A stretch of DNA of 64,000 nucleotides from Gambelia wislizenii (Eukaryota; Chordata; Lepidosauria; Squamata; Crotaphytidae): positions 247,294,645 to 247,358,644 of the forward strand of contig JAUMIR010000005.1 of the NCBI GenBank assembly GCA_030847615.1, given 5' to 3'. Under the pieces are notes generated by a model. The model did no database searches and was not told the origin of the DNA. It worked only from the letters and a program-made list of their open reading frames with translations. The translations under genes and the position numbers were made by a program. This document shows positions 5,340 to 56,379 of the stretch, piece after piece; position 1 is the stretch's first letter; every line of letters begins with the position of its first letter.

Positions 5340-7045
5340 TCTGCAGCCAGGGGAGAATCACTTACTGCGGATCAGTTACCGCCCACGCGCGACACAACCA
5401 GGACAGCAGGAAGAGGAAAGGGAGGAGGTCTTGAATGAAGTGGAGGCTTTTAATCCACATTTACTGAATACCCAGATTAGAACCCTCCACCCAACCACAA
5501 GGTAACGGTCTACTTTCTCCAGATTAATAAAGGAGGAGTAGAGAGAAAGGGGCATTCAACTGCCGGAGAATGAAGCCCTCTTTCTCCCCTTCACCCGCAA
5601 CAACACAAAAAAACCCGCGAAGAGCTTCTTTTCGGTGCAGCCCCGGAGGAGGGCGCTGCTGGTCCTATTACCTAAGAAGAAGAGGCGGAGGAGGAGGGAC
5701 AGGAGGAGAAAGAGAGGATTTAAAAAAAAACAAACCAGAAAATGAACCCCAATACACACTTTGCACACCCTGCATTTATTCCAAAAACGAACGCCAACCG
5801 CGCGTAGCTGGTGCAAACCGAAGCCTCCGTGCAACTCATCGCTCCCCGAAAAAGATCACCTTCCCCGGGGCTATGGAAGGACAACAAGGCCACTCTCACG
5901 TGGGGTGGGGTGGAACGGACCCCCCTCCAACCCTGGGAGTTTGGGGCTGAGCCAACCATGCACGCGCTTTTGCCAGACTCCCTCCCCACCCGGTCCTTAA
6001 TTTTGCTCCGCCCGGCCTGGGTGCCAAAAACGGAGGGGTTTTCTGGCATCCGGCCACTAGAGAACACGCTTCCCCTCCCTCCCTCCCTCCGGGGCTATTG
6101 CAGCCTCCCGTACTTGCCCACCGCTCATGGCTGGTGCTCCGTCCTGGTGGAGGGGGGAAATCGCGCGTGGAAACCGTGTTAAACCATGGTGCGGATGGGG
6201 AGGAGGAAGGTTTAAAAAAAAGGAAGAAAAAGAAAAAAAGCCTCTTTGCAAAAGCAGCGGCGGGGCTGCTGCTTGGCTGCGGCTGCTGATCCTCCTCCAG
6301 GGCGTGCGCTGCACCGCCGCTGCTGCTCCAGGCTCTGCTCGCCCAAAAGAATAGCAGGAGCACCAGCCGCGGCTGCTGCGAGTGGCTCGCGCACACCTTG
6401 GCAGCAGTTACTCAGTGCTGCTGCTGCTGCTGGACACGAGGGAATGGCGATGGGACAGAGGGGGGGAGTCCAGGAGCTCCTGACCTGTGTCGCTTCTTAA
6501 AGAGACCCTTCAAAGCTTCTTAAAGGTTATGTTGAGGGACCCAGGTTGTTCACCCAGAAGACACGGTTGGGAGCGCCCGGTTGGAGCATTGGTTGCATCC
6601 CTCCTTACACATACACACCTAACCCCCCTCTTTGGGGAGAGCGAAGTGGTACGTTCCGAATTTTGAGACATGGGGGGGGGAAGCGGCGGCGGCGGTTGGT
6701 CAAAGCGCGGGGAAAGGTGGCGGGGATGCGAACTGGGGCAGCCAATAGGAAGCGCGCGAAGGGCGGCTCGAGAGGGACTGCAGCGCGGGCCAAGGAGGCG
6801 CAATGGATGGAAAGACCCGGGCGGGTGCGAAGGGCAGCCCAGGTGCCTGGAGGAGTCGCAGGGAGAGCGGAGGAAGGAAGAGAGGCTCTGGAGAGGAAGG
6901 AAGGAAGGAAGCGGCAGGCAGCCACGCAAGCCCTTCTAGCTAGGAGAGGAGGCAGCCGCCTTGACCTCCAGCTCGCCCACACTTTGCGTGGCCCTTTCGC
7001 CAAGAGCTGCAGCACCCCGCCAAGACAAAGGAGATTGGCAGCAGC
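5340..7045. promoter_or_regulatory. CpG island, candidate promoter / first exon region
   Basis: CpG dinucleotides and G+C are strongly enriched compared with the flanks, which are nearly CpG-free. A CCAAT box (GCCAATAGG) lies at 6741-6749 with a GC box (GGGCGG) at 6761-6766. A (CTG)n run of about six lies at 6416-6433, and purine-rich GGAA repeats lie near 6895-6910. Unmethylated islands of this size usually mark promoters of vertebrate genes. Many overlapping open frames exist on both strands, but this is expected in G+C-rich DNA; several of the longest begin with GTG rather than ATG, and none matches a protein I know. Neither the direction of transcription nor the gene can be read from this window. 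The island is not a TIR element or tandem array, unlike the 48.7-56.3 kb block. Confidence 0.7.
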
Positions 7046-7533
7046 AGGAAAGAGTCCGTGAAATTTAATACATGGGTCATAATGGCTCCCACTCGTTGGG
7101 CTTTTCTAATCTGCAACGCCGGGTTGCCTTAGCGGAACAGCTTTCCTAATGAGAGCAAATGCCCTTGAAAGCAATCAAACTGCTGCAGTTCGGGTGGCGG
7201 GAAGAGGGAGGGGAGCAATGTTGTGAACTGGAGTTCGAAACATTGTGGGTGTAAACATTTGTTTATTATAATTATTTTTAATTTGATTTTGATTTTCACT
7301 AGGTCCCATAGCAGTAACACCATGAACACAATGAAGCAAAAATGGAATCTATGAAGCAAACATGGAGTCATTCAAAATGTGAGAACACTCCAAACAAGTT
7401 TCCAACGAATGCCTACGATGCACTAATATTTGCGCCTTTACCTAGTGCAGTGCAAGATCATACAAGTGGCAGGTGGTACTGTTTTAAGCATTCTAACATA
7501 TAAACAAAAGGGTCCTGTGCCTAACTCACAACT
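7046..7533. other. Flank of CpG island, nothing recognised
   Basis: CpG content drops back to background. No exon or repeat is supported. Confidence 0.4.
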
Positions 7534-8382: not shown

Positions 8383-8597
8383 CAGTTGTCCCTCCATATT
8401 CACATATTTAAATATTCACAGCTTGAAAATATTCTTAAAAAAACAATTATCCAAAAAGCAAACCTTGATTTTGCCATCTTATATAAGGAACACCATTTTG
8501 CTATGCCATTGCATATAATGGGACTTGCATATTCATGGATTTGGGTATTCACGGGAGGTCCTGGAACCAAACCCCAGCAAATGTGAATGGACAACTA
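8383..8597. mobile_element. Tigger/MER2-like MITE
   Basis: A 215-bp element with ends CAGTTGTCCCTCCATATTCA and (right, reverse-complemented) TAGTTGTCCATTCACATTTG, flanked by TA on both sides (8381-8382 and 8598-8599). The interior has A+T-rich (T)ATAATGGGACTTGC and TATTCACGGGAGGTCCTGG motifs typical of MER2-like pogo/Tigger derivatives. It has no coding capacity. Its termini match the large array-bearing element at 48592-56377. Confidence 0.8.
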
Positions 8598-14122: not shown

Positions 14123-15779
14123 CTTATTAATATACATCCGAGATGCAGTCATCATCACCCTGTACAAGAAAAAAGGAGCAAAATCCGATTGCTCAAACTA
14201 TCGAGGCATAACACTGCTCTCTATTGCTGGAAAAATCCTTGCAAGGATACTCCTGAACAGATTAGTTCCTGCTATTGCAGAAGAACTTCTCCCTGAAAGC
14301 CAAAGCAGAACTTCTCCCTGAGAGCCAATGGGAGTACTACAGACATGGTATTTGCCCTTAGGCAACTGCAAGAAAAATGTAGGGAGCAGAACAAGGGTCT
14401 CTATGTAACATTTGTCGACCTCACCAAAGCCTTTGACACTGTAAGTAGAAAAGGTCTGTGGCAGATCCTGGAAAGACTAGGATGTCCCCCCAAATACCTT
14501 AAAATGATTATCTTGCTACACGAGGGCCAGCGTGGTCAAGTCAGATATGGTGATGCTCTTTCAGAGCCCTTTCTAATAACTAATGGAGTGAAGCAAGGTT
14601 GTGTTCTTGCACCAACTTTATTTACAATCTTCTTTAGCACGATGCTCCAAAGGGCTATGGCAGAGCTTGAAGACGACGACGGCATCTATATACGTTACCG
14701 TACTGATGGTAGCTTGTTTAACTTAAGCCGTCTGAGGGCTCACACTAAGACTCTAAACTATCTAGTCCGTGAGCTGCTCTTCGCCCATGATGCTGCCCTT
14801 GTTGCCCACACAGAAGCAGCTCTGCAGCGCCTAACATCCTGCTTTGCAACAGCTGCAGAGCTGTTTGGGCTAGAAGTCAACCTGAAGAAAACAGAAGTTC
14901 TTTACCAGCCTGCACCACAGGACGAACACCACCATCCCCACATTGCCGTCGGCAAATCTGTGCTCAAGTCCGTTCAGCAGTTCACCTACCTGGGAAGCAT
15001 CATCTCCTCAGATGCCAAGATTGACAAAGAGATCGATCACAGATTAGCAAAGGCATATAGTGCATTTGGAAGACTTCACAAAAGAGTCTGGAGCAATAAA
15101 CACCTGAGGCAAAGCACAAAAATGAGTGTGTATAGAGCCATCGTACTGTCTATCCTCCTTTATGGATCTGAAACATGGGTCACCTATCGCCACCACCTAC
15201 GACTCCTCGAGCGCTTTCATCAGCGCTGTCTACGCACAATCCTAAATATACACTGGACTGACTATGTGACGAATGTTGCTGTCCTTGAGCAAGCAGGGAT
15301 CACCAGCATTGAGGCCATGATATTGAGAACACAGCTGTGCTGGGCAGGGCACGTTTCTAGGATGGAGGACCATCGCCTCCCCAAAATACTACTCTACGGT
15401 GAACTCGCCACGGGTCAGCGTAAGAGGGGCGCTCCAAAAAAGCGATACAAAGACTCCCTGAAACAACATCTCAGGCTTGGCCAAATTGATCACCAACAGT
15501 GGTCCGCCCTGGCCTCACATCGGGAGGCATGGAGACGCACTATCCACAATGCTGCAGCCTTATTTGAGAACTCACGACGAACAAGTCTTGAAGAGAAACG
15601 ACAACGCAGAAAGAATCACAACCCAAAAACATCACCCAAGGAGACCTTCTGCTGTGCTTTTTGCAACCGGACTTGTTTATCTCGGATTGGCCTTTTTAGT
15701 CATCAGCGCGCTTGCAGAAAGCACAGGATGAGTCCTTCCTGAATCTTCGTTTGCGAAGAAAAGCCAGAGAGAGAATTTT
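14123..15779 (+). mobile_element. Non-LTR retrotransposon (RTE-like?), 5'-truncated
   Basis: The longest of three copies of one LINE family here. It starts inside the reverse transcriptase (translated fragment RDAVIITLYKKKGAKSDCSN just after 14130) and ends at a conserved 3' tail, GAATCTTCG...CGAAGAAAAG...CCAGAGAGAGA. The tail contains a small hairpin, CTTCG-TTTG-CGAAG. An imperfect short tandem duplication (CAGAACTTCTCCCTGA, near 14280-14320) shifts the frame, so the first RT blocks are out of frame with the long downstream open frame. The endonuclease domain is absent. Clade assignment is uncertain: RT layout and the LLYGSETW motif suggest RTE-like, but the C-terminal zinc finger is not typical of RTE. 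Confidence 0.85.
14345..15742 (+). pseudogene. Reverse transcriptase with C-terminal CCHC-type finger, inactive
   Basis: A 465-codon open frame. Visible RT motifs: FVDLTKAFD (residues 23-31, metal-binding Asp present), GVKQGCVLAPTLF (81-93), and LLFAHDAAL at 144-152, where the usual F-A-D-D has become F-A-H-D. That loses one catalytic Asp, so the polymerase should be dead. Then come FTYLGSIIS (213-221), LLYGSETW and WAGHVSRMED in the thumb/C-terminal region. A zinc-finger-like C-x2-C-x12-H-x3-C lies at residues 437-457. The ATG chosen is only the first in the surviving frame; the true protein began far upstream. No endonuclease is present. This is a retroelement relic, not a host gene. Confidence 0.85.
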
Positions 15780-33066: not shown

Positions 33067-33354
33067 TCTTTCCCCAAATCCCCTGTAATTTCCTTGGTGT
33101 CTGTCCACATGGTGGAAATTGAGTATTGGGGCTCAATCTGAAGCAGGCCAAAAATCTATGCTCTGCATAGCCCAACTTTCTTGATGTAGAAGGACAAAAA
33201 AGTCAGTGTTTGTATGTATTAAACATGCAAAACCCCATGTTCAATCCCAGGCATTTGAAGCTTAATAGATCAGAACACTCTATAGCCTGAATCATATTGA
33301 TAGTCCTGACTAAAGTAGAACCACTGAATCAATGGGATTTACCTGTGTATTACA

Positions 33355-34091
33355 GATTAGCAAAGGCACATAGCACATTTGGAAGACTTTACAAAAGAGT
33401 CTGGAGTAATAAACACCTGAGGCGAAACACAAAAATCAGTGTGTATAGAGCCATTGTACTGTCTATTCTCCTTTATGGATCTGAAACATGGGTCACCTAT
33501 CGCCACCGCTTACAACTCCTCAAACACTTCCACCAGTGCTGTTTACGCACAATCCTAAATATACACTGGACTGACTATGTGACGAATGTTGCTGTCCTTG
33601 AGCAAGCAGGGATCACCAGCATTGAGGCCATGATATTGAGAACACAGCTGCGCTGGGCAGGGCATGTGTCTAGGATGGAGGACCGTCGCCTCCCCAAAAT
33701 AGTACTCTATGGTGAACTCACCACGGGTCAGCGTAAGAGGGGTGCTCCAAAAAAAGCGATACAAGGACTCCCTGAAACAACATCTCAGGCTTGGCCAAAT
33801 TGATCACCAACAATAGTCCGCCCTGGCCTCACATCGGGAGGCATGGAGACACACTATCCACAATGCTGCAGCCCTATTTGAGAACTCACGCTGAACAAGT
33901 CTTGAAGAGAAACGACAATGCAGAAAGAATCACAACCCAGCAACATCACCTGAGGAAACCTTCTGCTGTGCTTTCTGCAACCGGACTTGTCTATCTTGGA
34001 TTGGCCTTTTTAGTCATCAGCGCGCTTGCAGAAAATGCAGGATGAGTCCTTCCTGAATCTTCGTTTGCAAAGAAAAGCCAGAGAGAGAAGT
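33355..34091 (+). pseudogene. Second copy of the 14-kb LINE family, 5'-truncated and broken
   Basis: Corresponds to the copy-1 RT C-terminal region, from RLAKAYSAFGRLHKRVWSNK to the zinc finger and 3' tail. Breaks compared with copy 1: one extra A in the run near 33750 (frameshift after RKRGAPKK), TGG to TAG at about 33812-33814, and CGA to TGA at about 33892. The tail hairpin is changed (CTTCG-TTTG-CAAAG). It is the most diverged of the three copies. Confidence 0.85.
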
Positions 34092-36521: not shown

Positions 36522-36564
36522 CTAGAATCACACAGTTGGAAGGGATCCCAAGGGCCTTCTAGTA
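36522..36564 (-). repeat. CR1 3' end fragment split by a hAT element
   Basis: TAGAATCACACAGTTGGAAG then GGATCCCAAGGGCCTTCTAG is the reverse strand of the CR1 3' end. It stops at the hAT target site TTCTAGTA; a few further bases resume after 37100. Confidence 0.65.
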
Positions 36565-36659
36565 CAGTGATGGCGAACCTATGACACACGTGTCAGCACT
36601 GACACACGTAGCCATTTCTGATGACACGTGGCCATAGGCCTCCTCCCTACCTCCTGCAA

Positions 36660-36863
36660 TCTCACCACCCTCCCTAAAGTGGTGATCGGGGCTTCAAAGC
36701 CCCGGTCACCACTTTCTTCCCCCCTCCCACACTCCCTAAAGTGGCGATCAGGGCTTCGAAGCCCCGGTCCCACTTTCCTCCCCCCTCCCACCCTCCCCAA
36801 AGTGGGAATCTGCAAATATGTGGAACCGCGAATGTGAAACCCGCAAGTGTGGAGGGACAACTG
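36660..36863. mobile_element. Palindrome-cored Tigger-like element, right half
   Basis: The right end reads ACCGCGAATGTGAAACCCGC then AAGTGTGGAGGGACAACTG, followed by TA. This matches the right terminus of the 48592-56377 element (CGCGAATGTGGAGGGACAAC). Inside are two tandem palindromic units plus part of a third (AAAGTGG starts at 36676, 36738 and 36799; spacing 62 and 61 bp). Unit 1 folds as AAAGTGGTGATCGGGGCTT / AAGCCCCGGTCACCACTTT with one mismatch. C-rich linkers (TTCCCCCCTCCCAC) join units. No left TIR is seen, so it is a truncated copy inserted in the hAT element. Confidence 0.7.
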
Positions 36864-36891
36864 TAGTCGCAAATGTTTCATCCTCCCCTAT

Positions 36892-36952
36892 TAGACACTC
36901 TGTGCCGGAGGTCTGTAGGCCAAAACAACAGAAGTCCGGCACAGAGTGTCTA
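36892..36952. repeat. Perfect 18-bp inverted repeat
   Basis: Arms TAGACACTCTGTGCCGGA (36892-36909) and TCCGGCACAGAGTGTCTA (36935-36952), loop 25 bp. It lies inside the hAT element, right of the Tigger-like fragment. Confidence 0.85.
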
Positions 36953-37232
36953 GTTCTGAAACTTCCGGTTAAGCTCCCTCACATCCGCTGGCAGAGATAA
37001 TGTTTTTTTCACAAAGTGACACACCACCTTAGTTATGCTCAACTTTTTTGGCGAAGTTTGACATACCAAGCTCAAAAGGTTGCCCATCACTGTTCTAGTA
37101 GGACATTAGCAGTGCTTTTCATATTATTACTAGCTGTACCTGGCATAACATACGCTGTTATAGTAGATTTGAAAGGTTCACATGGTTCCGCTACACACTA
37201 TTATTTTAGGAAAACAATACTGCATTGTTTTA

Positions 37233-38070: not shown

Positions 38071-38168
38071 GAACAAGAGGGTAAGTTCTTTGTAGTGGAA
38101 TTCATATATCACATTTGCATTTATTTGGTATTTTTAGGCCTTTTAACATTTGTCTTATAGTCAGTCCA

Positions 38169-38680
38169 TGACGAATGTTGCTGTCCTTGAGCAAGCAGGG
38201 ATCACCAGCATTGAGGCCATGATATTGAGAACACAGCTGCGCTGGGCAGGGCACGTTTCTAGGATGGAGGACCATCGCCTCCCAAAAATACTACTCTACG
38301 GTGAACTCGCCACGGGTCAGCGTAAGAGGGGCGCTCCAAAAAAGCGATACAAAGACTCCCTGAAACAACATCTCAGGCTTGGCCAAATTGATCACCAACA
38401 GTGGTCCGCCCTGGCCTCACATCGGGAGGCATGGAGACGCACTATCCACAATGCTGCAGCCTTATTTGAGAACTCACGACGAACAAGTCTTGAAGAGAAA
38501 CGACAACGCAGAAAGAATCACAACCCAAAAGCATCACCCAAGGAGACCTTCTGCTGTGCTTTTTGCAACCGGACTTGTTTATCTCGGATTGGCCTTTTTA
38601 GTCATCAGCGCGCTTGCAGAAAACGCGGGATGAGTCCTTCCTGAATCTTCGTTTGCGAAGAAAAGCCAGAGAGAGAGAGA
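38169..38680 (+). pseudogene. Third copy of the 14-kb LINE family, 3' end only
   Basis: Begins at the TNVAVLEQAGITSIEAMILR region and runs open through the zinc finger (CCAFCNRTCLSRIGLFSHQR) to MSPS and stop at 38642, then the 3' tail with the CTTCG-TTTG-CGAAG hairpin. Compared with copy 1 over about 490 bp I count about six substitutions and no indel, so these two copies are close in age or source. Confidence 0.85.
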
Positions 38681-48042: not shown

Positions 48043-48591
48043 AATGGGTGCTCACAGATCAAATTCTAACTATCTATCCACTAGACCAACTATATTACAG
48101 AGTTGACAGCTACACCTTTTCCTGTGAATTAAAGCACACAGGATTTAAATGGCTACAAGTTGGAAAGACCTGGCTCTTCCCCATGTCAGGACAAACTGTA
48201 CATTCTGTTCTATATAATGGTAACATACTACAAGCAGCAGCTGCCATCTGTCTGTAGCTAGTGGCTTTCCACTAAAAGATTCTAAAATCAATGAGTTAAA
48301 TAACACCAAAGAGAGTTAATTAAAAACACAATATTCTGTTGGCAATGATTTTTAACCAAACTGACTTTAACCTCCAATTCTAACATCTTTCAAATCTTCC
48401 TATTATTCCGCTATCTAGCCCTAACCCCATGTGACATCAGAGCAGTTCAACCAATAATAGTCAAACAGGTTACATCCTCTCTGTCTGCGAGGTCCTAATG
48501 TGACATAAAAGTAGGTCAGCCGGTGAATAGTTTGGAAAAGGTTCTAGCTGGATTTCAAGTGTATGTTTGTTTGAACAGATGGAGACAAATA
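48043..48591. other. Unannotated A+T-rich DNA; target site of the large element
   Basis: No gene. The last two bases (TA, 48590-48591) form the target duplication of the element that follows. Confidence 0.5.
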
Positions 48592-48600
48592 CAGTCGTCC

Positions 48601-48646
48601 CTTCACATTCGCGGGGGTTCCGTTCCGCGGACCCCCGCGAATGTGA
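48601..48646. repeat. Left subterminal hairpin of the large element
   Basis: TTCACATTCGCGGGGGT (from about 48602) and ACCCCCGCGAATGTGAA pair perfectly around TCCGTTCCGCGG. The outer arm overlaps the TIR. Confidence 0.85.
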
Positions 48647-50610
48647 AAAAACCGCGAATAATGACACCCCTCCCCCCCTCCCTCCCCAGGCCTTCGCGGG
48701 GCCTTCCGAGGCCCCGCAGAGGCCTCCCCGGCCCTCCCCACCGCGTCCCCAGGCCTTCCTGGGGCCTCCGGAGCGTCTCCGGAGGCCCCAGGATCGCCTC
48801 CCCAGCCCTCCCCACCGCGTCCCCAGGCCTTCCTGGGGCCTCCGGAGCGTCTCCGGAGGCCCCAGGATCGCCTCCCCAGCCCTCCCCACCCCGTCCCCAG
48901 GCCTTTCTGGGGCCTCCGGAGCGTCTCCGGAGGCCCCAGGATCGCCTCCCCAGCCCTCCCCACCCCGTCCCCTAGCCTTCCTGGGGCCTCCGGAGACGCT
49001 CCGGAGGCCCCAGGATCGCCTCCCCAGCCCTCCCCACCGCGTCCCCAGGCCTTCCTGGGGCCTCCGGAGCGTCTCCGGAGGCCCCAGGATCGCCTCCCCA
49101 GCCCTCCCCACCCCGTCCCCAGGCCTTTCTGGGGCCTCCGGAGCGTCTCCGGAGGCCCCAGGATCGCCTCCCCAGCCCTCCCCACCCCGTCCCCTAGCCT
49201 TCCTGGGGCCTCCGGAGACGCTCCGGAGGCCCCAGGATCGCCTCCCCAGCCCTCCCCACCGCGTCCCCAGGCCTTCCTGGGGCCTCCGGAGCGTCTCCGG
49301 AGGCCCCAGGATCGCCTCCCCAGCCCTCCCCACCCCGTCCCCAGGCCTTTCTGGGGCCTCCGGAGCGTCTCCGGAGGCCCCAGGATCGCCTCCCCAGCCC
49401 TCCCCACCGCGTCCCCAGGCCTTCCTGGGGCCTCCGGAGCGTCTCCGGAGGCCCCAGGATCGCCTCCCCAGCCCTCCCCACGCCTTTCTGGGGCCTCCGG
49501 AGCGTCTCCGGAGGCCCCAGGATCGCCTCCCCAGCCCTCCCCACCGCGTCCCCAGGCCTTCCTGGGGCCTCCGGAGCGTCTCCGGAGGCCCCAGGATCGC
49601 CTCCCCAGCCCTCCCCACCGCGTCCCCAGGCCTTCCTGGGGCCTCCGGAGCGTCTCCGGAGGCCCCAGGATCGCCTCCCCAGCCCTCCCCACCCCGTCCC
49701 CAGGCCTTCCTGGGGCCTCCGGAGCGTCTCCGGAGGCCCCAGGATCGCCTCCCCAGCCCTCCCCACCCCGTCCCCAGGCCTTCCTGGGGCCTCCGGAGCG
49801 TCTCCGGAGGCCCCAGGATCGCCTCCCCAGCCCTCCCCACGCCTTTCTGGGGCCTCCGGAGCATCTCCGGAGGCCCCAGGATCGCCTCCCCAGCCCTCCC
49901 CACCGCGTCCCCAGGCCTTTCTGGGGCCTCCGGAGCGTCTCCGGAGGCCCCAGGATCGCCTCCCCAGCCCTCCCCACCCCGTCCCCAGGCCTTCCTGGGG
50001 CCTCCGGAGCGTCTCCGGAGGCCCCAGGATCGCCTCCCCAGCCCTCCCCACTGCGTCCCCAGGCCTTCCTGGGGCCTCCGGAGCGTCTCCGGAGGCCCCA
50101 GGATCGCCTCCCCAGCCCTCCCCACCCCGTCCCCAGGCCTTTCTGGGGCCTCCGGAGCGTCTCCGGAGGCCCCAGGATCGCCTCCCCAGCCCTCCCCACC
50201 CCGTCCCCAAGCCTTCCTGGGGCCTCCGGAGACGCTCCGGAGGCCCCAGGATCGCCTCCCCAGCCCTCCCTACCGCGTCCCCAGGCCTTCCTGGGGCCTC
50301 CGGAGCATCTCCGGAGGCCCCAGGATCGCCTCCCCAGCCCTCCCCACCCCGTCCCCAGGCCTTTCTGGGGCCTCCGGAGCGTCTCCGGAGGCCCCAGGAT
50401 CGCCTCCCCAGCCCTCCCCACCCCGTCCCCAGGCCTTCCTGGGGCCTCCGGAGCGTCTCCGGAGGCCCCAGGATCGCCTCCCCAGCCCTCCCCACCGCGT
50501 CCCCAGGCCTTCCTGGGGCCTCCGGAGCGTCTCCGGAGGCCCCAGGATCGCCTCCCCAGCCCTCCCCACCCCGTCCCCAGGCCTTTCTGGGGCCTCCGGA
50601 GCGTCTCCGG

Positions 50611-51275
50611 AGGACCCAGGATCGCCTCCCAAGCCCTCCCCACCCCGTCCCCAGGCCTTCCTGGGGCCTCCGGAGCGTCTCCGGAGGCCCCAGGATCGCC
50701 TCCCCAGCCCTCCCCACCCCGTCCCCAGGCCTTTCTGGGGCCTCCGGAGCGTCTCCGGAGGCCCCAGGATCGCCTCCCCACCCCGTCCCCAGGCCTTCCT
50801 GGGGCCTCCGGAGCGTCTCCGGAGGCCCCAGGATCGCCTCGCCAGCCCTCCCCACGCCTTTCTGGGGCCTCCGGAGCGTCTCCGGAGTCCCCAGGATCGC
50901 CTCCCCAGCCCTCCCCACCGCGTCCCCAGGCCTTCCTGGGGCCTCCGGAGACGCTCCGGAGGCCCCAGGATCGCCTCCCCAGCCCTCCCCACCGCGTTCC
51001 CAGGCCTTCCTGGGGCCTCCGGAGCGTCTCCGGAGGCCCCAGGATCGCCTCCCCAGCCCTCCCCACGCCTTTCTGGGGCCTCCGGAGATGCTCCGGAGGC
51101 CCCAGGATCGCCTCCCCAGCCCTCCCCACCCCGTCCCCAGGCCTTCCTGGGGCCTCCGGAGCGTCTCCGGAGGCCCCAGGATCGCCTCCCCACCCCGTCC
51201 CCAGGCCTTCCTGGGGCCTCCGGAGACGCTCCGGAGGCCCCAGGATCGCCTCCCCAGCCCTCCCCACCCCGTCCC
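50611..51275. repeat. Higher-order block A, copy 1 of 3 in the array
   Basis: Four rare variants occur in fixed order: AGGACCC (50611), GGAGTCCCC (50884), GCGTTCCC (50994-), and a palindrome-less GTCCCCAGGA (51271). The same four recur at exactly +2149 (52760, 53033, 53145 for GTTCC, 53420) and at +2956 (53567, 53840, 53952, 54227). No indel separates the copies over at least 660 bp. Confidence 0.85.
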
Positions 51276-51615
51276 CAGGATCGCCTCCCCAGCCCTCCCC
51301 ACCCCGTCCCCAGGCCTTCCTGGGGCCTCCGGAGCGTCTCCGGAGGCCCCAGGATCGCCTCCCCAGCCCTCCCCACCCCGTCCCCAGGCCTTTCTGGGGC
51401 CTCCGGAGCGTCTCCGGAGGCCCCAGGATCGCCTCCCCAGCCCTCCCCACCCCGTCCCCTAGCCTTCCTGGGGCCTCCGGAGCGTCTCCGGAGGCCCCAG
51501 GATCGCCTCCCCAGCCCTCCCCACGCCTTTCTGGGGCCTCCGGAGCGTCTCCGGAGGCCCCAGGATCGCCTCCCCAGCCCTCCCCACCGCGTCCCCAGGC
51601 CTTCCTGGGGCCTCC

Positions 51616-51686
51616 GGACCGTCTCCAGAGGCCCCAGGATCGCCTCCCCAGCCCTCCCCACCCCGTCCCCAGGCCTTTCTGCAGCC
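51616..51686. repeat. Higher-order block B, copy 1 of 4
   Basis: A GGACCGTCTC unit followed by a TTTCTGCAGCC unit (51616 and 51681). The pair recurs at 52462/52527 (+846), 54794/54859 (+3178) and 55566/55631 (+3950), always 65 bp apart. Confidence 0.85.
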
Positions 51687-54600
51687 TCCGGAGCGTCTCC
51701 GGAGGCCCCAGGATCGCCTCCCCAGCCCTCCCCACCGCGTCCCCAGGCCTTCCTGGGGCCTCCGGAGCGTCTCCGGAGGCCCCAGGATCGCCTCCCCAGC
51801 CCTCCCCACGCCTTTCTGGGGCCTCCGGAGATGCTCCGGAGGCCCCAGGATCGCCTCCCCAGCCCTCCCCACCCCGTCCCCAGGCCTTCCTGGGGCCTCC
51901 GGAGCGTCTCCGGAGGCCCCAGGATCGCCTCCCCACCCCGTCCCCAGGCCTTTCTGGGGCCTCCGGAGCGTCTCCGGAGGCCCCAGGATCGCCTCCCCAC
52001 CCCGTCCCCAGGCCTTTCTGGGGCCTCCGGAGCGTCTCCGGAGGCCCCAGGATCGCCTCCCCAGCCCTCCCCACCCCGTCCCCTAGCCTTCCTGGGGCCT
52101 CCGGAGACGCTCCGGAGGCCCCAGGATCGCCTCCCCAGCCCTCCCCACCGCGTCCCCAGGCCTTCCTGGGGCCTCCGGAGCGTCTCCGGAGGCCCCAGGA
52201 TCGCCTCCCCAGCCCTCCCCACCCCGTCCCCAGGCCTTTCTGGGGCCTCCGGAGCGTCTCCGGAGGCCCCAGGATCGCCTCCCCAGCCCTCCCCACCCCG
52301 TCCCCAGGCCTTCCTGGGGCCTCCGGAGACGCTCCGGAGGCCCCAGGATCGCCTCCCCAGCCCTCCCCACGCCTTTCTGGGGCCTCCGGAGCGTCTCCGG
52401 AGGCCCCAGGATCGCCTCCCCAGCCCTCCCCACCGCGTCCCCAGGCCTTCCTGGGGCCTCCGGACCGTCTCCGGAGGCCCCAGGATCGCCTCCCCAGCCC
52501 TCCCCACCCCGTCCCCAGGCCTTTCTGCAGCCTCCGGAGCGTCTCCGGAGGCCCCAGGATCGCCTCCCCAGCCCTCCCCACCGCGTCCCCAGGCCTTCCT
52601 GGGGCCTCCGGAGCGTCTCCGGAGGCCCCAGGATCGCCTCCCCAGCCCTCCCCACGCCTTTCTGGGGCCTCCGGAGATGCTCCGGAGGCCCCAGGATCGC
52701 CTCCCCAGCCCTCCCCACCCCGTCCCCAGGCCTTTCTGGGGCCTCCGGAGCGTCTCCGGAGGACCCAGGATCGCCTCCCCAGCCCTCCCCACCCCGTCCC
52801 CAGGCCTTCCTGGGGCCTCCGGAGCGTCTCCGGAGGCCCCAGGATCGCCTCCCCAGCCCTCCCCACCCCGTCCCCAGGCCTTTCTGGGGCCTCCGGAGCG
52901 TCTCCGGAGGCCCCAGGATCGCCTCCCCACCCCGTCCCCAGGCCTTCCTGGGGCCTCCGGAGCGTCTCCGGAGGCCCCAGGATCGCCTCGCCAGCCCTCC
53001 CCACGCCTTTCTGGGGCCTCCGGAGCGTCTCCGGAGTCCCCAGGATCGCCTCCCCAGCCCTCCCCACCGCGTCCCCAGGCCTTCCTGGGGCCTCCGGAGA
53101 CGCTCCGGAGGCCCCAGGATCGCCTCCCCAGCCCTCCCCACCGCGTTCCCAGGCCTTCCTGGGGCCTCCGGAGCGTCTCCGGAGGCCCCAGGATCGCCTC
53201 CCCAGCCCTCCCCACGCCTTTCTGGGGCCTCCGGAGATGCTCCGGAGGCCCCAGGATCGCCTCCCCCGCCCTCCCCACCCCGTCCCCAGGCCTTCCTGGG
53301 GCCTCCGGAGCGTCTCCGGAGGCCCCAGGATCGCCTCCCCACCCCGTCCCCAGGCCTTCCTGGGGCCTCCGGAGACGCTCCGGAGGCCCCAGGATCGCCT
53401 CCCCAGCCCTCCCCACCCCGTCCCCAGGATCGCCTCCCCAGCCCTCCCCACCCCGTCCCCAGGCCTTTCTGGGGCCTCCGGAGCGTCTCCGGAGGCCCCA
53501 GGATCGCCTCCCCAGCCCTCCCCACCCCGTCCCCAGGCCTTTCTGGGGCCTCCGGAGCGTCTCCGGAGGACCCAGGATCGCCTCCCCAGCCCTCCCCACC
53601 CCGTCCCCAGGCCTTCCTGGGGCCTCCGGAGCGTCTCCGGAGGCCCCAGGATCGCCTCCCCAGCCCTCCCCACCCCGTCCCCAGGCCTTTCTGGGGCCTC
53701 CGGAGCGTCTCCGGAGGCCCCAGGATCGCCTCCCCACCCCATCCCCAGGCCTTCCTGGGGCCTCCGGAGCGTCTCCGGAGGCCCCAGGATCGCCTCGCCA
53801 GCCCTCCCCACGCCTTTCTGGGGCCTCCGGAGCGTCTCCGGAGTCCCCAGGATCGCCTCCCTAGCCCTCCCCACCGCGTCCCCAGGCCTTCCTGGGGCCT
53901 CCGGAGACGCTCCGGAGGCCCCAGGATCGCCTCCCCAGCCCTCCCCACCGCGTTCCCAGGCCTTCCTGGGGCCTCCGGAGCGTCTCCGGAGGCCCCAGGA
54001 TCGCCTCCCCAGCCCTCCCCACGCCTTTCTGGGGCCTCCGGAGATGCTCCGGAGGCCCCAGGATCGCCTCCCCAGCCCTCCCCACCCCGTCCCCAGGCCT
54101 TCCTGGGGCCTCCGGAGCGTCTCCGGAGGCCCCAGGATCGCCTCCCCACCCCGTCCCCAGGCCTTCCTGGGGCCTCCGGAGACGCTCCGGAGGCCCCAGG
54201 ATCGCCTCCCCAGCCCTCCCCACCCCGTCCCCAGGATCGCCTCCCCAGCCCTCCCCACCCCGTCCCCAGGCCTTTCTGGGGCCTCCGGAGCGTCTCCGGA
54301 GGCCCCAGGATCGCCTCCCCAGCCCTCCCCACCGCGTCCCCAGGCCTTCCTGGGGCCTCCGGAGCGTCTCCGGAGGCCCCAGGATCGCCTCCCCAGCCCT
54401 CCCCACCCCGTCCCCAGGCCTTTCTGGGGCCTCCGGAGCGTCTCCGGAGGCCCCAGGATCGCCTCCCCAGCCCTCCCCACCCCGTCCCCTAGCCTTCCTG
54501 GGGCCTCCGGAGCGTCTCCGGAGGCCCCAGGATCGCCTCCCCAGCCCTCCCCACCCCGTCCCCAGGCCTTTCTGGGGCCTCCGGAGCGTCTCCGGAGGCC

Positions 54601-56379
54601 CCAGGATCGCCTCCCCAGCCCTCCCCACCCCGTCCCCAGGCCTTCCTGGGGCCTCCGGAGACGCTCCGGAGGCCCCAGGATCGCCTCCCCAGCCCTCCCC
54701 ACGCCTTTCTGGGGCCTCCGGAGCGTCTCCGGAGGCCCCAGGATCGCCTCCCCAGCCCTCCCCACCGCGTCCCCAGGCCTTCCTGGGGCCTCCGGACCGT
54801 CTCCGGAGGCCCCAGGATCGCCTCCCCAGCCCTCCCCACCCCGTCCCCAGGCCTTTCTGCAGCCTCCGGAGCGTCTCCGGAGGCCCCAGGATCGCCTCCC
54901 CAGCCCTCCCCACCGCGTCCCCAGGCCTTCCTGGGGCCTCCGGAGCGTCTCCGGAGGCCCCAGGATCGCCTCCCCAGCCCTCCCCACGCCTTTCTGGGGC
55001 CTCCGGAGATGCTCCGGAGGCCCCAGGATCGCCTCCCCAGCCCTCCCCACCCCGTCCCCAGGCCTTCCTGGGGCCTCCGGAGCGTCTCCGGAGGCCCCAG
55101 GATCGCCTCCCCACCCCGTCCCCAGGCCTTTCTGGGGCCTCCGGAGCGTCTCCGGAGGCCCCAGGATCGCCTCCCCACCCCGTCCCCAGGCCTTTCTGGG
55201 GCCTCCGGAGCGTCTCCGGAGGCCTCAGGATCGCCTCCCCAGCCCTCCCCACCCCGTCCCCTAGCCTTCCTGGGGCCTCCGGAGACGCTCCGGAGGCCCC
55301 AGGATCGCCTCCCCAGCCCTCCCCACCCCGTCCCCAGGCCTTTCTGGGGCCTCCGGAGCGTCTCCGGAGGCCCCAGGATCGCCTCCCCAGCCCTCCCCAC
55401 CCCGTCCCCAGGCCTTCCTGGGGCCTCCGGAGACGCTCCGGAGGCCCCAGGATCGCCTCCCCAGCCCTCCCCACGCCTTTCTGGGGCCTCCGGAGCGTCT
55501 CCGGAGGCCCCAGGATCGCCTCCCCAGCCCTCCCCACCGCGTCCCCAGGCCTTCCTGGGGCCTCCGGACCGTCTCCGGAGGCCCCAGGATCGCCTCCCCA
55601 GCCCTCCCCACCCCGTCCCCAGGCCTTTCTGCAGCCTCCGGAGCGTCTCCGGAGGCCCCAGGATCGCCTCCCCAGCCCTCCCCACCGCGTCCCCAGGCCT
55701 TCCTGGGGCCTCCGGAGCGTCTCCGGAGGCCCCAGGATCGCCTCCCCAGCCCTCCCCACGCCTTTCTGGGGCCTCCGGAGATGCTCCGGAGGCCCCAGGA
55801 TCGCCTCCCCAGCCCTCCCCACCCCGTCCCCAGGCCTTCCTGGGGCCTCCGGAGCGTCTCCGGAGGCCCCAGGATCGCCTCCCCACCCCGTCCCCAGGCC
55901 TTCCTGGGGCCTCCGGAGCGTCTCCGGAGGCCCCAGGATCGCCTCCCCAGCCCTCCCCACCCCGTCCCCAGGCCTTCCTGGGGCCTCCGGAGACGCTCCG
56001 GAGGCCCCAGGATCGCCTCCCCAGCCCTCCCCACCGCGTTCCCAGGCCTTCCTGGGGCCTCCGGAGCGTCTCCGGAGGCCCCAGGATCGCCTCCCCAGCC
56101 CTCCCCACCCCGTCCCCAGGCCTTCCCGGGGCCTCCGGAGCGTCTCCGGAGGCCCCAGGATCGCCTCCCCACCCCTCCCCAAGCCTTCATGGGGCCTCCG
56201 GAGCGCCTCCGGGGGCCCCGTGGACGCCTCCCTGGGCCTCCCCGCTCCCTCTATGTCTTTCACGGGGCCTCTGGAGGCCCCGTGTCGCGGTTTTGGGGGG
56301 GCCCGGGGGGGGCCCTCCCAAAACCGCGAATAACCGAAACCGCGAATGTCAAGTTCGCGAATGTGGAGGGACAACTGTA

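Follow-up and report, generated by a model that had tools for sequence, protein, structure and literature searches.

A palindromic minisatellite inside a pogo/Tigger-like element of Gambelia wislizenii: a long copy of what is probably a large family of dispersed arrays

The 64,000-nucleotide stretch of the Gambelia wislizenii genome analysed here (the window; assembly GCA_030847615.1, contig JAUMIR010000005.1, positions 247,294,645 to 247,358,644 of the forward strand) contains, at positions 48592-56377, a 7,786-bp DNA element whose interior is a tandem array of palindromic units. TA stands outside both ends, at 48590..48591 on the left, as the target-site duplication, and at 56378..56379 on the right, and there is no N anywhere in the window. 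The left end (48592..48665, plus strand), delimited by sequence, folding and alignment, is of a hairpin type and consists of the terminal repeat CAGTCGTCCCTTCACATTCGCG and a subterminal hairpin located within 48602-48647. The right end (56250..56377, minus strand), delimited by sequence and alignment, is of a triple-motif type with three ATTCGCG motifs and the terminal repeat CAGTTGTCCCTCCACATTCGCG; the hairpin listing of the element places another subterminal hairpin (TCGCGGTTTTGGG... / ...CCCAAAACCGCGA) at 56285..56329 on the plus strand. CAGTCGTCCCTTCACATTCGCG, taken on the plus strand from 48592, and CAGTTGTCCCTCCACATTCGCG, taken on the minus strand from 56377, were identical at 18 of their first 20 bases and at 20 of the first 22. 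The folding energy of the left subterminal hairpin is -25.2 kcal/mol, compared to a shuffle mean of -10.6, and none of 200 shuffles equalled it. Thus, the ends matching at 18 of 20 bases, the TA on each side and the left hairpin reported by the first-pass annotation of this DNA were all confirmed.

Both ends have counterparts of their own kind elsewhere in the window. The left end aligned to the hairpin-type end of a miniature inverted-repeat transposable element (MITE) at 8597 with a score of 48 (shuffle mean 13.6, 0 of 300 shuffles equal), and the right end aligned to an end at 36863 with a score of 50 (shuffle mean 15.6, 0 of 300). This implies that 48592-56377 is one complete element with the correct polarity and not a pair of ends joined by chance. 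The CpG observed/expected ratio was 0.57 in the element versus 0.25 in the remaining window.

Tandem Repeats Finder (TRF) detected in the element a single array at 48722-56181 (plus strand) with a period of 74 and 103 copies. Splitting the array at GGATCGCCTC yielded 105 complete units, each a palindrome followed by a C-rich spacer, of which 75 were 74 bp, 16 were 63 bp, 11 were 64 bp and three were 35 bp long, and which comprised 30 distinct sequences. The tandem array was therefore described correctly at first pass, but its extent is about 7.46 kb instead of about 7.6 kb, and 30 of the 105 units are not 74 bp long. We counted 108 non-overlapping hairpins in the element, 98 of them with arms of 15-17 bases and a short loop (at most 2 mismatches allowed), and a two-unit stretch folded at -46.9 kcal/mol versus -26.9 in shuffles (0 of 200 equal). 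A G-quadruplex (G4) motif was present on the minus strand in 73 of the 105 units, the corresponding mean in mononucleotide shuffles being 18.5 and the maximum 28. The interior of the element is made up of the array, and the open frames found there are coded by the repeats; we take the long ones that run across the array to be a by-product of G+C-rich, stop-free repeats.

Exact duplications of 615 bp (offset 772), 575 bp (2,332), 551 bp (3,104) and 486 bp (2,149) were found within this copy. The centre of the array is homogeneous, whereas the units at its edges are diverged and have other stems. The left-edge unit (48688..48725, plus strand) has the stem GCGGGGCCT / AGGCCCCGC, and two further copies of the element that were read whole, L047 and L048, open with the same kind of unit. 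On the right, two diverged palindromic units (56191..56284, plus strand) align with the two palindromic units of a short sibling in the sampled locus L017, the alignment extending over the rightmost 211 bases of this copy and including the right end of the sibling. Diverged units at both edges would be expected if the array had grown from the middle.

To place this copy within the genome, we searched all 2,466,384,532 bases of the assembly (68 contigs), using reversed query sequences as controls. The 20-mer of the right end, AAGTTCGCGAATGTGGAGGG, occurred exactly 4,222 times and the 21-mer of the left end, GTCCCTTCACATTCGCGGGGG, 4,823 times, and neither reversed control occurred at all. We then fetched 600 bp at each of the first 12 right ends listed as an unselected sample. 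In all 12 copies palindromic G+C-rich units lay directly inside the right end, although the units of some short copies were rather diverged from one another, and TA stood beyond that end in all 12. The number of hairpins per stretch ranged from 4 to 8, compared to means of 0.0-1.0 in five shuffles each; the right-subterminal-hairpin type was listed 10 times among the 12 copies, and the last 120 bases were 0.87-1.00 identical to those of the window copy in every case. Four of the 12 were complete elements of 343, 377, 404 and 473 bp. The other eight had no left end within 587 bp, and in one of these (L046) the units were replaced by other sequence near the far side. Several unit types occur within the family, with stems such as GCGGGGCCT/AGGCCCCGC, CATGGGGCCTCCGGAG/CTCCGGAGGCCCCATG and others.

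A separate sample of 26 stretches of 10 kb, 324 kb together with the window, contained 13 end pairs. Ten of these were A+T-rich MITEs 215-236 bp in length; the other three were G+C-rich elements measuring 7,786, 1,523 and 766 bp, the last of which (L017) is swollen by an inserted repeat. The short MITEs of 215-240 bp that the first-pass annotation had named as relatives with the same end thus do exist and share the end design, but they represent another subfamily. Its statement that the element carries a satellite was borne out by the palindromic units at 12 of 12 right ends and in the two other elements read whole, and its dependence on further loci combining these ends with a palindromic tandem interior is answered by the same copies and by the thousands of exact ends. 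An exact search of IMG/VR and GTDB contigs with the left-end and unit patterns gave 0 matches, as expected for a vertebrate repeat.

Element lengths were surveyed by pairing exact ends, each used once, in the first 43.6 Mb of contig C1, for which 82 right ends and 100 left ends were listed; the remaining 18 of 100 listed right ends, located past the final left end on the list, were excluded. This gave 46 unique pairs, whose lengths ranged from 196 to 3,432 bp with a median of 1,359 and a mean of 1,570, with five elements below 600 bp, 21 of 600-1,499 bp, 17 of 1,500-2,999 bp and three of at least 3,000 bp. Among neighbours within 15 kb, the chance controls amounted to one pair in opposite orientation and three in the wrong order. 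A count of 47 pairs with a maximum of 6,651 bp was rejected, as one left end had been counted twice. The window copy (7,786 bp) exceeds all 46 pairs; its length is about 5.7-fold the median and 2.3-fold that of the longest pair, so that neither the more than 30-fold excess over its relatives claimed at first pass nor the idea of a unique giant is compatible with the lengths measured in its own subfamily. If the 43.6-Mb stretch is typical, the genome would contain about 2,600 exact-ended elements amounting to about 4.1 Mb.

The unit itself was followed with a 35-mer of the window copy, which occurred exactly 8,756 times genome-wide (reversed control 0). The first 100 matches listed came from 7 loci, all on one contig and spanning 23 Mb. 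An exact left end in the same orientation stood beside all 7 loci and an exact right end beside 6 of them, and the unit strand agreed with the element strand in all 7. For the locus at 11,443,872, the left end lies 459 bp past the last listed unit, beyond the 400-bp limit of the script, and was counted through the end list and the pairing. No free array was found among the 7 loci behind these first 100 matches. A density of 100 per 23 Mb predicts about 10,700 copies genome-wide, compared to the 8,756 counted. The suggestion that the element may seed a satellite is supported only as far as the arrays are dispersed together with the element; no free array was seen among the matches listed in these 23 Mb.

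L047 (2,563 bp, 29 units) and L048 (3,432 bp, 41 units) are both flanked by TA and built of the same 74-bp unit, which enabled us to compare unit orders among three loci on two contigs. All three copies have the same kinds of edge unit and contain 63-bp short units that arose by different deletions. The window copy has three distinct unit sequences in common with L047 and two with L048. Pairs of adjacent units recur within copies (23 in the window copy, three in L047 and 11 in L048), whereas the pairs common to two copies number 0 for the window copy and L047, two for the window copy and L048, and 0 for L047 and L048. The mean unit distance within L047 (2.37) and within L048 (3.10) was lower than that to other copies (3.65-3.95). 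The order of unit variants is thus largely private to each of the three copies. Shared units in private orders imply that some 74-bp units predate the separation of the copies and that most of the present order is later. Identity of the ends among the copies was 0.956-0.989 for the 90 bases on the left and 0.974-0.983 for the stretch on the right, which suggests that the copies are rather young.

The loops of the palindromes occur in both orientations. Among the 96 regular-arm palindromes of the window copy (four hairpins with a CCGTC loop were left out), the loop was CGT in 72 and CAT in two, and the reverse complements ACG and ATG were present in 15 and seven, respectively. The corresponding counts were 20 CGT, 11 CAT, 0 ACG and 10 ATG in L048, and 24 CGT, one CAT, 0 ACG and two ATG in L047. 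Spacer inversion by template switching would have this outcome: between perfect arms, three bases are replaced by their exact reverse complement. Spacer inversion and arm homogenisation through template switching have been described in yeast (PMC8604942), and PMC8794818 argues that template switching creates and keeps hairpins. The outer stem bases differ from copy to copy yet tend to remain complementary, as they are at 74 of 90 positions when 30 rows are compared (shuffled mean 53.3, maximum 67 in 5,000), which we regard as a trend and not as a clean test.

We take the element to be of the pogo/Tigger type, with a presumed likeness to the Tigger/MER2 consensus sequences. Judged by its ends, its TA target and the lack of a visible transposase, it is apparently a non-autonomous, pogo/Tigger-like element. 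TA was found at the window copy, L047 and L048, and the hairpin and triple-motif ends have a fixed polarity when compared with elements of the same genome. The genome contains at least 151 DDE_1 matches, many of them stop-free and several with an identical open frame of 456 amino acids. This implies that transposases of the right class exist in this genome. Near one such stop-free 456-amino-acid frame (C44:47985803) a different terminal-looking sequence, CGCCGGAATATACGGTA, was observed on its 3' side (L050, sense); another pogo-type family may have been recently active, as its frame recurs at several places. Upstream of this transposase, at a distance of about 1 kb from its likely start, we observed a tandem repeat of AAGGTGGGGAGAAAGAGCAAAGCCAGGGC units (L049, sense). 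MITEs measure about 400 bp according to the review PMC9659126; the window element, at 7,786 bp, is larger, and short members of the family (343-473 bp) exist. Classical satellite DNA forms long heterochromatic blocks; the arrays that we observed are interspersed and reach up to a few kb.

The exact ends are interspersed at thousands of places, the lengths vary widely and the unit types differ among copies. We consider it very probable that the window element belongs to the long tail of a large non-autonomous pogo/Tigger-like family with a palindromic minisatellite interior, whose locally expanding arrays are dispersed by transposition. In such a family, a short element with few units would be moved by a transposase acting in trans, and after or between jumps the array could grow or shrink through slippage, unequal exchange or re-replication at the hairpin- and G4-bearing units. 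Template switching inside the palindromes could keep the arms matched and occasionally flip the loop, and the longer arrays would then jump as blocks, dispersing the satellite. We also propose, tentatively, that the family could be a working satellite-dispersal system, in which the palindrome/G4 units would be intrinsically driven to expand, the palindromes renewed by template switching and arrays of up to several kb spread along the chromosomes as single blocks, resulting in thousands of separately evolving satellite copies; this is quite possible, though somewhat short of probable.

A different history would be a locus-specific expansion of the minisatellite in an ordinary short MITE after its insertion, with only short elements moving and the array never being mobilised. 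The complete short elements with few units (343-473 bp), the mostly private orders of unit variants and the edge units held by the short sibling L017 are in line with it. However, three loci on two contigs contain the 74-bp unit, in each case with the same spacer and with the inverted ATG loop, and the 35-mer is present in 7 loci of 23 Mb; a unit common to separate loci implies that the element already had some such units, probably several, before the copies separated. Moreover, 41 of the 46 paired elements are longer than 600 bp, which argues against movement of short elements only, and we find this history rather unlikely. It is also unlikely that the transposon captured a satellite which existed beforehand and did not arise from the palindromes of the element itself, a capture of the kind proposed for the MITE miDNA4 of Xenopus (PMC12628747). 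Capture would fit the strong differences of unit type among copies and the stretch of 62-bp units at 36656-36800, which has no significant likeness to the edges of the array in the window element (92 of 300 shuffles equal), but all 7 loci behind the first 100 unit matches listed have element ends, and with 8,756 occurrences counted against about 10,700 predicted, a large free block of the exact 35-mer is hardly to be expected. Finally, a collapsed or expanded repeat could have been joined to transposon ends by chance in the assembly. Tandem arrays are prone to misassembly, and none of the 46 other elements measured is as long as the window copy; nevertheless, the same architecture was found at other loci, the window has no N, and at both junctions the edge units are diverged and the end is of the expected kind, which makes an artefact very improbable. 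The count of about 105 units in the window copy is the count as assembled.

Several observations weigh against dispersal of expanding arrays by a mobile family. The empty site was sought by joining the flanks of the window element and allowing up to 3 mismatches, with 0 matches, and the element ends were not found within 1.2 kb on each side of the DDE_1 copy C44:47985803, the sole copy whose flanks were read. For 36 of the 82 right ends in the 43.6 Mb an exact left partner was not found, and the length survey represents this one stretch of one contig and exact ends only. The unit listing covers 23 Mb, which leaves room for free arrays elsewhere. Units of the window copy are not more homogeneous within the copy (mean distance 3.91) than towards L047 (3.92) or L048 (3.69). 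The number of G4 motifs varies by copy, with 0 in L044 and one each in L037 and L039, so that the G4 is not a constant feature of the family. In addition, the arm covariation is only a trend because its 30 rows come from related, non-independent copies.

Other features of the window and of the sampled loci were also recorded. A fragment related to the element lies at 36660..36863 on the minus strand (TRF, alignment). It has an end of the right type at 36863, next to which a palindromic unit of another kind, 62 bp long, is repeated about 2.3 times; a left end was not seen, and, as stated above, these units near 36.7 kb showed no significant likeness to the array edges of the window element. The fragment is enclosed by a further element at 36550-37107, which we presume from its ends to be hAT-like and which contains an Rfam mir-9338 match at 36889-36955. 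A G+C- and CpG-rich region at 5600-7100 is a likely promoter CpG island, and an Rfam match to 5S ribosomal RNA at 1820-1938 (48 bits) is perhaps a 5S-derived short interspersed nuclear element. The 481-amino-acid open frame at 14297-15742 resembles, by eye, the reverse transcriptase of a long interspersed nuclear element, and similar fragments are present at 33291-33803 and 38147-38644. In the sampled loci, the short sibling at positions 1640-2405 of L017 contains, besides its two palindromic units, a telomere-like CCCTAA run and an insertion in the left hairpin, presumably CR1-like. This insertion, the 5S-like match and the types of repeat present would be in keeping with a reptilian and probably squamate host. 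Related ends also bound a 1.5-kb element at 6048-7570 of L014, in which imperfect palindromic units, each about 100 bp long, are numerous; it possibly represents another satellite-bearing subfamily. A further element with a C-rich interior and Tigger-like ends, one of them presumably so, lies at 8490-9022 of L015.

With Tigger, pogo and MER2 elements the window element has in common the TA target, the CAGT-type ends and a subterminal hairpin at one end, and the MITEs of 215-236 bp share this end design; in contrast to them, it has a satellite in place of its interior, with no transposase seen inside. The closest comparison is offered by miDNA4, a Tc1/mariner MITE of Xenopus tropicalis (Scalvenzi and Pollet 2014) with an internal satellite ranging from one monomer to an array, according to the reviews PMC9659126 and PMC12628747. 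Both are non-autonomous, of Tc1/mariner type, and have a tandem array of varying unit number between their ends, and a route from MITE to satellite has been proposed. As far as these review descriptions of miDNA4 go, the element studied here is set apart by its G+C-rich palindrome with a G4-type spacer, a length of 7.8 kb, several unit types and both loop orientations. The BrickBuilt MITE of Porphyromonas gingivalis likewise contains a minisatellite and is dispersed in many copies, but it is bacterial and its unit measures 23 bp, with 19 copies in ATCC 33277 (PMC4596501). The Tetris foldback element of Drosophila virilis supplies building blocks of a satellite (PMC4079207) and is similar in being a DNA transposon that feeds a satellite; its satellite comes from the terminal repeats (TIR-220, according to PMC9659126), whereas here it is the central palindromic unit that is repeated. 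Among the matches listed in the open-licence literature, the papers cited here and PMC2872659, we found no account of an element of Tigger type whose interior is of this kind. MITE-borne satellites are thus already known, and as far as the literature listed goes, novelty lies in the palindrome-plus-G4 unit, in lengths ranging up to 7.8 kb, in the presence of several unit types in the same family and in loops of both orientations.

The origin and spread of satellites is an old question, for which this one genome offers apparently thousands of bounded arrays ranging from a few to more than 100 units. Comparable ends and edge units make expansion, homogenisation, the upkeep of palindromes and loop inversion countable copy by copy. 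Moreover, CpG-dense blocks rich in hairpins and G4 motifs could, where they lie near genes, affect replication and chromatin.

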